Source of the DNA: Lachnospiraceae bacterium
GTDB lineage: Bacteria; Bacillota_A; Clostridia; Lachnospirales; Lachnospiraceae
Assembly: GCA_021770615.1 (NCBI GenBank)
Contig: JAETQR010000083.1
Location: forward strand, 1-8,111
Direction of reading: 5' to 3'
DNA length: 8,111 nt
Below the pieces are notes generated by a model. It searched no databases and had not been told where the DNA came from. It saw only the letters and a list, made by a program, of their open reading frames with translations. Positions 2,253 to 6,547 of this stretch are shown piece after piece (the first letter of the stretch is position 1; every line of letters begins with the position of its first letter). The translations under genes were made by a program, and so were the position numbers.

Positions 2253-3179
2253 ATGGAGTACATACTACCGCCTCTCAAAAATGTAAATGACAGTAATAAT
2301 AATTTTATGGGGGCATTTGTGAATTTAATGCGTTATAAAGGGATTGAACTGGATGAGAGAAAGGTTCAGTTATTTTATGCGGGGATCAGGTTAAATCTGA
2401 CGTATCGTGATGAGATAAATTTAAGTTCCAATTTTTCTCAGGGAGTTCATAATTTTTGTGCGGAAAATAATATAAAATTCAGGGAGATGAATATTCCCTC
2501 CGACTATATGAAGGAAGCGGTCCACGATATACTTGTGACAGACGGGCCATGTATCATTTTTCTCGATTCAGGAAATTTCAAATATTATAAATCTTTTGTA
2601 AATGACAATGTCAGTCATTGCGTGACAGTGACGGGGATCGATGAAGGCGGGTTTCACATTGTGGATTCGTATGCATCACCAGCGCCGGGAAGTGTATATC
2701 AGGGTGTGCTGCCCTTTTCTGCGATCAGTGATCAAAAAACAAAGAGGCAGGTCAGGATTGCTTATGTAGAAGGGGAAGCGAAGAATTCATTTGATGATGC
2801 CAGGTTGAATTTAACGTTGGAACGACAGAAATATGTCAATGAAAATATTTATATGGAACCGGGCAGCAGATTGAAGACAAGTGCAGATTATTGTGAGTAT
2901 ATCCAGTCGGATCTTTCTGTATTTAAGGGAGGAATGCTCCGGAAGGTTGCATATAACATCATGACAGACACCCATGTCCCACAGATCAGGATGATCATAC
3001 CGTTATTTGTCAGAGAAAAGGAAAAATATGCAAAATTATGCAGATTAAGTAATGACTGGCTGCTTTTATCATATCGTTTTCTTAAAGACAGTTTCAGCAC
3101 CCCTTTTCAGGGACAGGAGGTTTTGCTTGAAAATTACAGGGCGTTAGTAAACAGAGAGCAGGATATTTATATGCGGTAG
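2253..3179 (+). CDS. C39-peptidase/BtrH-like N-terminal domain protein, apparently lacking the catalytic cysteine
   Basis: The N-terminal half (about 1-175) resembles the papain-like fold shared by C39 peptidases and the BtrH N-terminal domain (an acyl/peptidyl-transfer enzyme of butirosin synthesis). It has an N-terminal helix segment (FMGAFVNLMRYKG, 18-30), a strand with the usual histidine (SHCVTVTGID, His122) and the following Asp (GFHIVDSY, Asp138). Where the family has a cysteine at the head of the helix, this protein reads DSNNNF (13-18), so the nucleophile seems missing. The C-terminal part (about 180-308) is mostly helical, charged and unrecognised. There is no signal peptide or membrane segment, so it should be cytoplasmic. 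A GGAGG site lies at 2235-2239, 13 bases from the ATG, which is long; no better start was found. The assignment is by motif and fold pattern only; substrate unknown. It may be under control of the LytTR regulator upstream. Confidence 0.55.
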   Translation: MEYILPPLKNVNDSNNNFMGAFVNLMRYKGIELDERKVQLFYAGIRLNLTYRDEINLSSNFSQGVHNFCAENNIKFREMNIPSDYMKEAVHDILVTDGPCIIFLDSGNFKYYKSFVNDNVSHCVTVTGIDEGGFHIVDSYASPAPGSVYQGVLPFSAISDQKTKRQVRIAYVEGEAKNSFDDARLNLTLERQKYVNENIYMEPGSRLKTSADYCEYIQSDLSVFKGGMLRKVAYNIMTDTHVPQIRMIIPLFVREKEKYAKLCRLSNDWLLLSYRFLKDSFSTPFQGQEVLLENYRALVNREQDIYMR

Positions 3180-4868: not shown

Positions 4869-5363
4869 ATGATTTCAAGAAAAGAAAAAGGAATGGAACT
4901 GTTTATGCAGGGTTATAACTGCTCGCAGGCGGTTGTGCTTGCTTTTGCAGATGTGATCGGAGTGGATCAGGATCAGGCGGCCAGATTGTCGGCATCGTTT
5001 GGCGGAGGTCTGGCGAGGCTGCGCCATGTGTGCGGGACTGTTTCCGGGATGTCAATGGTGGCGGGAATGCTGACTGCTTCTTCTGATCCGAAAGATACCC
5101 AAAAGAAAAAAGAGAATTATGAGATGGTGCAAAGATTGGCAGGAGAGTTTGAAAAGCGTAATGGGAGCATCATATGCCGTGAGCTTCTCGGGCTTGGAAC
5201 GGAGCGCACATCTGTCGGAAAAGAGTATCGGGAAGGCGCTGCACCAGAGCCAAGGACAAAAGAATATTATGATAAGAGACCGTGTAAGGAGCTGGTGGGA
5301 GAGGCCTGTGAGATCCTGGAGGATTTTCTCTTTAGCCAGGTTGACAAGGAAATTGATTTTTAG
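4869..5363 (+). CDS. C_GCAxxG_C_C family protein (conserved multi-cysteine protein, probably redox/metal-linked)
   Basis: Small family common in anaerobes and of unproven biochemical function; members are thought to bind a metal or cofactor or to have a redox role because of their conserved cysteines. Here 164 residues with Cys18 (GYNCSQAV), the SFGGG segment (43-47), CGTVSG (55-60; the family usually has Ala where Thr57 is), Cys103 (IICRELLG), and Cys139 (RPCKELV), plus a further Cys147. There is no signal peptide, so it is cytoplasmic. Start: AAAGGAAG (4855-4862) lies 6 bases before the ATG at 4869; the upstream in-frame ATG at 4836 lacks a binding site. The last 11 or so codons and the TAG lie inside a long inverted repeat (5332-5616), so the natural C-terminus may have been replaced. 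Divergent from the Mrp gene. Confidence 0.85.
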   Translation: MISRKEKGMELFMQGYNCSQAVVLAFADVIGVDQDQAARLSASFGGGLARLRHVCGTVSGMSMVAGMLTASSDPKDTQKKKENYEMVQRLAGEFEKRNGSIICRELLGLGTERTSVGKEYREGAAPEPRTKEYYDKRPCKELVGEACEILEDFLFSQVDKEIDF

Positions 5364-5616
5364 CGCTTGCAGCTTTATGAGACCAGTAAGATTTGTACAG
5401 CAGCGGGTATATTTCCCGATTCAGACCCGCTCCCGCTTAAAATAAACATGTAGCGGTACAAAGGCTGCAAGGTGCAAAAGTTGCACCTTGTACGCAGCCT
5501 AAGGACCGACACGTTTATACGGTCTTTATCAGGAAATATACCCGCTGCTGTACAAATTTTTATCAGCTTTTTATAAAGCTGCAAGCGCTAAAAAATCAAT
5601 TTCTATGTCAGGCTAA
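5332..5616. repeat. Very long imperfect palindrome (MITE-like fold-back element)
   Basis: Two arms pair across about 285 bases. Outer: TTAGCC (5332-5337) with GGCTAA (5611-5616), TGACA (5342-5346) with TGTCA (5606-5610). Then 5349-5378 pairs with 5573-5603 with one extra base, through AGCGCTTGCAGC. After a mismatched loop, 5391-5416 pairs perfectly with 5532-5557 (26 bp). The centre is a separate stem: AGGCTG (5462-5467) with CAGCCT (5495-5500), and CAAGGTGCAA (5468-5477) with TTGCACCTTG (5481-5490) around a 3-base loop. It contains no gene. Neither end has a T-run placed as in an intrinsic terminator. It could be a miniature inverted-repeat transposable element, a structured RNA, or a double terminator. 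No target-site duplication was recognised. Most of the 341 bases between the two flanking genes is this element. Confidence 0.85.
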
Positions 5617-5624
5617 GGAAATTC

Positions 5625-5653
5625 TTGAATAAGGGCGGCGATTATGGTATTAT
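5625..5653 (+). promoter_or_regulatory. Extended -10 promoter of the nfnAB operon
   Basis: TTGAAT (5625-5630), a 17-base spacer, then TATTAT (5648-5653) preceded by TGG (5645-5647), which is an extended -10 (TGn) element. Transcription would begin near 5660, about 45 bases before the nfnA start. It lies 9 bases beyond the right end of the long palindrome, so the operon keeps its own promoter whatever the palindrome does. Confidence 0.75.
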
Positions 5654-5704
5654 AAGAAATGTATGTGACGAATTTTATCAAAAAAACAGGCAGGAGGCAT
5701 TTTT

Positions 5705-6547
5705 ATGTTTAAGATTGTAGAGAAAACGTCCCTGAACCCTACTGTTACAAAGATGGTAGTGGAAGCGCCTATGATTGCGAAAAAGGCGGAGCCGGGACAG
5801 TTTATTATCTTTCGCGCAAAAGAGGACAGCGAAAGAATCCCTTTGACGATTTCAGATTATGACAGGGAAGCCGGAACGGTTACGATCATTTATCAGATCG
5901 TTGGCGGTTCGACAATGGAACTGGACACACTGAAAGCAGGGGAATACATTCATGATTTTGTGGGGCCGTTAGGAGTCCCGACACACACAGAGGGATTAAA
6001 AAAGGTGGCTGTAGTAGGCGGCGGTGTGGGATGTGCGATCGCATATCCGGTGGCCAAAAAGCTTCATGATATGGGAGCGGAAGTTCATGCCATCGTAGGT
6101 TTCAGAAGTCAGGATCTTGTGATCCTCGAAGAAGAGTTTAAGAATGCAAGCGATAAACTGGTCATGATGACAGATGACGGAAGTTACGGGGAAAAGGGAC
6201 TTGTTACAGATGCACTTGAGAGATTGATCAATGAGGGAAATGAATATGATGAAGTCATTGCGATCGGGCCGCTCATCATGATGAAATTCGTCTGTCTTAC
6301 AACGAAGAAATATAATATTAAGACAATGGTCAGTATGAATCCGATCATGATCGATGGAACGGGAATGTGTGGCGGCTGTCGTCTTACTGTAGGCGGGGAG
6401 ACGAAGTTTGCCTGTGTGGATGGACCGGATTTTGATGGCCATCTTGTGGATTTTGATGAGGCGATGCACCGGGGGACGATGTATAAAGAGTTTGAGACTC
6501 ATGCAAGGGAAGCAGCCTGCAATTTATTGAAAAAGGAGGCGCAGTAA
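5705..6547 (+). CDS. nfnA: NADH-dependent reduced ferredoxin:NADP+ oxidoreductase, small (FAD/[2Fe-2S]) subunit NfnA
   Basis: Small subunit of the Nfn electron-bifurcating transhydrogenase; also annotated SudB or dihydroorotate dehydrogenase electron-transfer-like subunit. It binds NAD(H), FAD and a [2Fe-2S] cluster. 280 residues: an N-terminal FAD-binding beta-barrel with RIPLTISDY (44-52), an NAD-binding Rossmann segment VAVVGGGVGCA (101-111), an IGPL motif (187-190), and a C-terminal cluster loop DGTGMCGGC (Cys222, Cys225) plus Cys237 (FACVDGPDF). In characterised Nfn one ligand is an aspartate rather than a fourth cysteine; Asp217 is the likely one here. AGGAGG (5692-5697) is 7 bases before the ATG. 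It is one base apart from nfnB, so the two are translationally linked. A pyrK-like role is unlikely because nfnB follows and no pyrD is present. Confidence 0.93.
   Translation: MFKIVEKTSLNPTVTKMVVEAPMIAKKAEPGQFIIFRAKEDSERIPLTISDYDREAGTVTIIYQIVGGSTMELDTLKAGEYIHDFVGPLGVPTHTEGLKKVAVVGGGVGCAIAYPVAKKLHDMGAEVHAIVGFRSQDLVILEEEFKNASDKLVMMTDDGSYGEKGLVTDALERLINEGNEYDEVIAIGPLIMMKFVCLTTKKYNIKTMVSMNPIMIDGTGMCGGCRLTVGGETKFACVDGPDFDGHLVDFDEAMHRGTMYKEFETHAREAACNLLKKEAQ

Follow-up and report, generated by a model that had tools for sequence, protein, structure and literature searches.

The window, i.e., the whole 8,111-nt stretch of DNA analyzed here, carries a long palindrome, with a gene for a C_GCAxxG_C_C protein (PF09719) upstream and two genes downstream whose domains are consistent with nfnA and nfnB. 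A protein matching BtrH_N just below the cut-off (24.5 versus 29.7 bits) is also encoded, at 2253-3179. A sequence-only reading had placed the palindrome between the genes, at 5332-5616, and had described 26 unbroken pairs and a central 10-bp dyad with a 3-nt loop. The palindrome is real: a repeat search recovered nested arm pairs at 5388-5427/5521-5560 (90% complementary over 40 nt), 5357-5378/5573-5594 (22/22 complementary), and 5342-5361/5591-5610 (90% of 20), and the RNA fold of 5320-5630 reached -163.4 kcal/mol, ca. 90 kcal/mol below 100 dinucleotide shuffles (-73.3 ± 4.9; z = -18.3), none of which folded equally well. The letters also agree with the 26 pairs (5391-5416/5532-5557) and with the dyad (5468-5477/5481-5490). 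However, the element proper corresponds to 5345-5607, 263 bp that are self-complementary nearly throughout, and it is flanked by a duplication at 5336-5344 and 5608-5616. On the left it reaches into the C_GCAxxG gene, the last five codons and stop of which are element sequence. The features are as follows.

5345-5607, no strand: whole palindromic mobile element, 263 bp, bounded by terminal repeats and a target duplication; missing from the six relatives aligned
5336-5344, plus: left copy of the decayed 9-bp target duplication, CCAGGTTGA; 6/9 identical to 5608-5616
5608-5616, plus: right copy of the target duplication, TCAGGCTAA; letters uninterrupted in L007, which lacks the element
5345-5360, plus: left terminal inverted repeat; 3 mismatches to the G001 consensus CACGGAAATCAATTTT
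5592-5607, minus: right terminal inverted repeat; 4 mismatches to the same consensus
5391-5416, no strand: arm; 26 perfect pairs with 5532-5557
5532-5557, no strand: arm; partner of 5391-5416
5406-5542, minus: conserved core (model R2, 87.1 bits; the window is one of the 29 model sequences)
5429-5437, minus: side hairpin AGC-GGGA-GC, with its GNRA loop on the minus strand, from the letters and the family counts
5447-5464, minus: conserved helix, 3' strand on the minus strand, CCTTTGTACCGCTACATG, with a 2-nt CU bulge
5493-5513, minus: conserved helix, 5' strand on the minus strand, CGTGTCGGTCCTTAGGCTGCG
5346-5363, plus: end of the C_GCAxxG reading frame encoded by the element (KEIDF and stop)

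Among the 56 loci of the NfnA scan, the closest one (L001) belongs to a MAG named Roseburia sp. (genome G001; a genus of the Lachnospiraceae according to the NCBI), with 80 to 88% DNA identity to the window on either flank. The match ends at window position 5333 and restarts at 5619, with two bases in between. The comparison of empty sites suggested by the first reading was clear, as the palindrome is absent between the same genes in all six aligned relatives (L001 to L005 and L007), and TGTCAGGCTAAGGAAATTC, which in the window comprises the end of the palindrome and what follows it, is uninterrupted in L007. The protein of the window ends in SQVDKEIDF, with KEIDF and the stop codon (5361-5363) read from the element, and the C_GCAxxG proteins of the relatives have different tails. 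A promoter-like TTGAAT-N17-TATTAT ahead of nfnA (5625-5653) is located outside the insertion and has a counterpart in the relatives; two promoter-like sites were found in the scanned region versus 0.8 expected.

Dispersed copies and target duplications

A miniature inverted-repeat element had been among the explanations proposed, together with a search for further copies in relatives. Using blast, the window element gave 39 matches in G001, the closest genome searched, and none in the 13 further genomes searched alongside it or in 38 more drawn from the genus. R1, a covariance model of 152 positions built for the inner part from 26 G001 copies and the window, detected 28 places in G001 above 100 bits, plus weaker ones that are partly reverse-strand matches of the same places. 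Thus, instead of one copy per genome at a single conserved locus, the pattern that the first reading associated with a structured RNA or terminator, we found many dispersed copies. The aligned G001 copies fold into long hairpins and have a common terminal sequence, CACGGAAATCAATTTT; allowing up to three mismatches, this pattern was found 63 + 56 times in G001, versus 7 + 12 for a backwards control.

Target duplications were assessed in the 12 elements with both ends recognizable. The 9-bp flanks agreed at six or more positions in 7 of the 12, versus 2 of 132 swaps (1.5%), with a mean agreement of 5.0 positions versus 2.27 when swapped, and among the lengths of 4 to 12 tested, 9 alone stood out. 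The duplication is perfect in L071 and L090, 8/9 in L088, 7/9 in L065 and L066, and 6/9 in the window and L084, while the other five (L064, L069, L080, L082, and L089; 0 to 2 of 9) have none. L063, with five mismatches in its left end, was omitted from this test; visual inspection shows TTCAAAAGT repeated exactly at both of its ends. Of 18 G001 stretches inspected, four (L087 to L090) match the terminal pattern at both ends, and three of these are shorter derivatives, possibly by later deletion: L088 (136 bp) has no core match, L089 (47 bp) consists of ends only, and L090 (199 bp) retains part of the core. Since L088 lies within an 8/9 duplication without a core, the core may be dispensable for movement.

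Inspection by eye of the ORFs in the 18 stretches of G001, a fragmented MAG, revealed no recognizable transposase with these ends, and only ordinary-looking genes were seen between paired cores in G492 and G218. Seven G001 contigs (C21, C30, C38, C44, C59, C80, and C118) start or stop in or near a copy, so assemblies are probably interrupted by the element and contain fewer copies than the genome does. Neither phages nor plasmids gave a blast match to the window element, viral contigs scanned for exact patterns gave none either, and the core of locus L143 was not found in plasmids. The L143 core had two weak matches, L283 (MT838426.1) and L284 (MT839589.1), both in unverified, unannotated "Bacteriophage sp." scaffolds from human feces that may represent bacterial contamination of a virus preparation.

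The empty sites, dispersed copies, common ends, and 9-bp duplications support the idea of a miniature element, and we regard mobility of the palindrome as well supported. It would have been moved by a transposase supplied from another locus and cutting with a 9-bp stagger.

A conserved core near the tip of the hairpin

The inner part of the element is recognizable far beyond G001. With R1, matches were obtained in 102 of the 397 family genomes, and in the distant copies the arms were very different and the tip alike. A second model (R2, 118 positions, from 29 sequences of 28 sources, the window included) matched 162 of the 397 genomes of the family Lachnospiraceae, or about two fifths; at the higher ranks, the matches were in 33 of 295 genomes (order), 12 of 391 (class), and 5 of 398 (phylum). 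These taxa are those of G001, which was counted in every set, and the cut-off was an E value of 0.001 per genome, with a few genomes near the limit (e.g., G063, G601, and G1255). Core copy numbers per genome are lower bounds, as 7 to 12 candidates were scored in each.

Read on the minus strand, the motif consists of a long outer helix and an inner helix ending in AAAACG/CGTTTT, with a 2-nt CU bulge on the 3' side. A side hairpin, AGC-GNRA-GCG, is located between the inner and outer helices on the 3' side. CGGUAC-UUAG pairs with CUUA(N)-GUACCG, leaving one U.U mismatch, and the tip is a variable stem whose loop is frequently GUNYUUU. A shared boundary of the outer helix, with CAG before it and CGTCC after it, was seen by eye in ca. 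7 of 29 loci.

Folding the RNA and looking for covariation had been suggested as a check, and compensatory changes proved to be far above both shuffled and slid controls. In alignment A2, 86.7% of cells pair, and two-sided changes affect 38 of 42 pairs (277 cells), compared with 26.9 pairs and 97 cells in shuffles. None of 500 shuffles was as high, and sliding the partner gave at most 28 pairs and 107 cells; the structure was derived from the same alignment, which favors covariation, but the margin is large. The loop of the side hairpin is GNRA in 77 of 78 matches (GAAA 36, GAGA 20, GCAA 6, GGGA 6, GCGA 5, GGAA 3, GUAA 1, and GAUA 1), and both sides of its two-pair stem change (GC/GC 65, GU/AC 9, AU/AU 2, AC/GU 1, and GC/GA 1). 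These counts come from a model-fitted alignment of 78 matches at 69 loci, in which copies of the same genome are not independent; 78 of 82 rows were used, the four omitted being reverse-strand matches within copies already counted. The structured RNA put forward as an alternative to a mobile element therefore gains some support, as a structured nucleic acid within a mobile element and not in place of one.

Rfam 15 gave no match at the gathering score for the window or for the 40 source entries, and none for 5300-5660 at E values up to 5. Below the threshold, a Clostridiales-1 match (24 bits, other strand) overlapped the core in L147, and plant miRNA models did so in L057 and L140. In L143, a Clostridiales-1 RNA below its gathering score (40.9 versus 48 bits) is found at 1142-1284, a few hundred bases from the core. 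Among the open-licence papers listed in literature searches, none describes the element, as judged on titles and the beginnings of abstracts.

The units carrying the core vary among genomes. In G148, the whole core-bearing unit is repeated in tandem at two places, with four copies and a 164-bp period at L181 (C59, 124500-126600) and three copies and a 187-bp period at L182 (C21, 11700-13700). Three loci of G076 (L163, L165, and L167) carry two different core-bearing units that are adjoining and divergent. Their ends are of the AAACTG(C/T)AG type, which occurs 49 + 27 times in that genome versus 0 + 1 in the control. Terminal repeats differ among G001, G076, and G113, suggesting different transposases or rapid co-evolution.

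Nature and function of the core

An RNA helix under selection for pairing is expected to prefer G.U mispairs on its own strand. In the core, G.U was not preferred to A.C (43 versus 52; 19 versus 16 in helices 2 and 3 of A2), and the arms gave similar figures, with 67 versus 89 in the 26 G001 copies plus the window (arms trimmed to element length) and 25 versus 22 in loci of 22 genomes, a count that took 22 of the 29 sequences, as seven, including the window, failed the hairpin search pattern. At columns 43/186 of alignment A3, the pairs are UA (49), CA (19), and CG (10), the intermediate being G.U on the opposite strand. With such parity, RNA and single-stranded DNA are both possible. It is compatible with pairing being proofread or mended at the DNA level, e.g., when single strands form hairpins or when templates are switched at quasi-palindromes (PMC7202029), and a mixture is also possible, with helices matched in DNA and tip features maintained as RNA.

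The core could thus act as single-stranded or cruciform DNA instead of RNA, serving as a hairpin that a transposase, recombinase, or replication protein recognizes, and this is the alternative that we take most seriously, although we consider it unlikely. Besides the mispairs, it agrees with an orientation bias relative to flanking genes that is weak. Among the 86 copies between co-directional genes, the genes are on the strand opposite to the GNRA strand in 50 and along it in 36 (crude ORF calls around 184 copies, 38 of them set aside for an overlapping ORF). GC-GAAA-GC is, moreover, a very stable mini-hairpin in DNA too. However, the purine at the third loop base in 77 of the 78 matches is the RNA GNRA rule, the minus strand folded better as RNA in 26 of 29 core sequences, and Y1 transposases were not associated with the core in 24 genomes whose carrier status was set by R2 (8 of 17 carriers, 5 of 7 non-carriers, and none in G001). 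On the strength of the loop rule and of the minus-strand folds, we somewhat favor minus-strand RNA. A similar argument, from tetraloops that stabilize RNA but not DNA, has been put forward for the STAXI motif (PMC2864571).

The core might also be a functionless relic of an ordinary MITE family, looking conserved only through recent copying, as the mobile signature of 9-bp duplications and the coreless copies L088 and L089 would allow. This is improbable given a core recognizable in 162 genomes with differing arms, its compensatory changes, and the GNRA constraint. It is also at odds with the slow change of a copy that G679 and G648 carry at the same position between asnS and asnA (NCBIfam equivalogs). 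There, the element is 144/154 identical (93.5%) between the two genomes, the last 600 bases of asnS 560/600 (93.3%), and the spacer between the element and asnA 114/169 (67.5%). From the common position and these identities, the copy predates the split of G679 and G648 and evolves at the pace of coding sequence, which suggests, for this one species pair, that it is functional.

An even less probable function, in our view, is that of a 3'-UTR element or transcription terminator of the upstream genes. The window copy does start at the end of a gene, the 3' side of the core faces a gene 3' end in 83 copies versus a 5' end in 53, and five of the seven close core pairs inspected (L268, L270, L271, L272, and L273; ORFs by eye) are opposed pairs between convergent genes, with one core behind each. 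Against it, 36 copies are reversed between co-directional genes, 16 lie between divergent genes, and 5300-5720 contains no terminator-like site (a G+C-rich stem plus T run; 0.3 expected), which speaks against an intrinsic terminator. In L153, two opposed cores (1217-1334 and 1501-1618) follow the genes encoding ribosomal proteins L10 and L7/L12, and an L10 leader is located at 15-172.

The matching of the arms differs between genomes. In seven copies of G306, arm identity was 0.90 to 1.0 within a copy and 0.39 to 0.73 between copies, figures that omit one copy with a 5-nt match and in which the within-copy stretches are favored by local alignment. In G001, identity was 0.715 within and 0.64 and 0.62 between copies, and the arms were nearest to each other in only 2 of 26 copies. 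Concerted evolution of the arms is therefore weak in G001, and we make no claim for the family. An immobile local palindrome, produced by inverted duplication or by template switching, would accommodate the G306 arms, which match in each copy yet differ among copies, and in E. coli template switching has been described as correcting imperfect palindromes (PMC7202029). As a full account, however, an immobile palindrome is contradicted by dispersed homologous copies, common ends, and target duplications, and we give it hardly any credence. The process may nevertheless contribute to the matching of the arms.

Differences between the arms had been read as independent drift. This is true of the G001 arms, in which both kinds of mispair are frequent, but not of the asymmetric tip features, which are kept in many genomes with compensatory changes. 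The unequal block at 5417-5461 is not drift alone, because it contains the GNRA mini-hairpin and the 2-nt bulge of the widely conserved core.

Overall interpretation and known systems

Taken together, the comparisons make it probable that the palindrome is a non-autonomous, MITE-like element carrying a conserved core selected as a folded nucleic acid. Near its tip, the core (a helix with a U.U mismatch, a 2-nt bulge, and the GNRA side hairpin) recurs in many Lachnospiraceae genomes while arms and ends differ, and it would be kept by selection in folded form, with minus-strand RNA somewhat likelier than single-stranded DNA. The long arms would mainly serve to keep it in hairpin form. A function of the core is likely on the sequence evidence. 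A broader proposal, to which we give slightly less than an even chance, is that the core represents a new class of functional structured nucleic acid (RNA or DNA hairpin), absent from Rfam 15 and carried through the Lachnospiraceae at the tips of palindromic mobile elements with repeatedly replaced arms and ends, which locally (e.g., between asnS and asnA) would have become a host element under purifying selection.

If this is true, undescribed mobile hairpins are present in a large part of a dominant gut-bacterial family, by the dozen in some genomes, and bear a conserved motif resembling a working RNA or DNA structure. Annotators would gain a new type of repeat, perhaps also an RNA family, and the hairpins would account for altered tails of genes and for some of the contig breaks in such genomes. 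The elements would also be a natural test case for how long palindromes persist and keep matching themselves amid sequence change.

Several known systems share parts of this picture. Integron attC sites are hairpins with extrahelical bases and a variable tip; compared by description, the element is alike in these respects, but its mobility leaves target duplications. REP/BIME elements are intergenic imperfect hairpins in multiple copies, at times in opposed pairs, as is the element described here, which differs from those served by RAYT (Y1) in its target duplications and terminal repeats. The Y1_Tnp counts given above speak against a Y1-linked REP system. Clostridiales-1 (RF01699) and others are hairpin RNAs given for Clostridiales and the human gut (PMC2864571). 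Our cores resemble them in this, but fall below every Rfam gathering score, with weak overlaps only. The closest parallel is with bacterial MITEs, which are likewise short and gene-free, with terminal inverted repeats, target duplications, many dispersed copies, and empty sites in relatives. Unlike them, the element is palindromic from end to end, has an asymmetric core conserved across genomes with differing ends, and had no parent transposon among the 18 stretches of the fragmented G001 MAG. The element itself is thus of an ordinary MITE-like kind, and the conserved covarying hairpin core is its unusual passenger.
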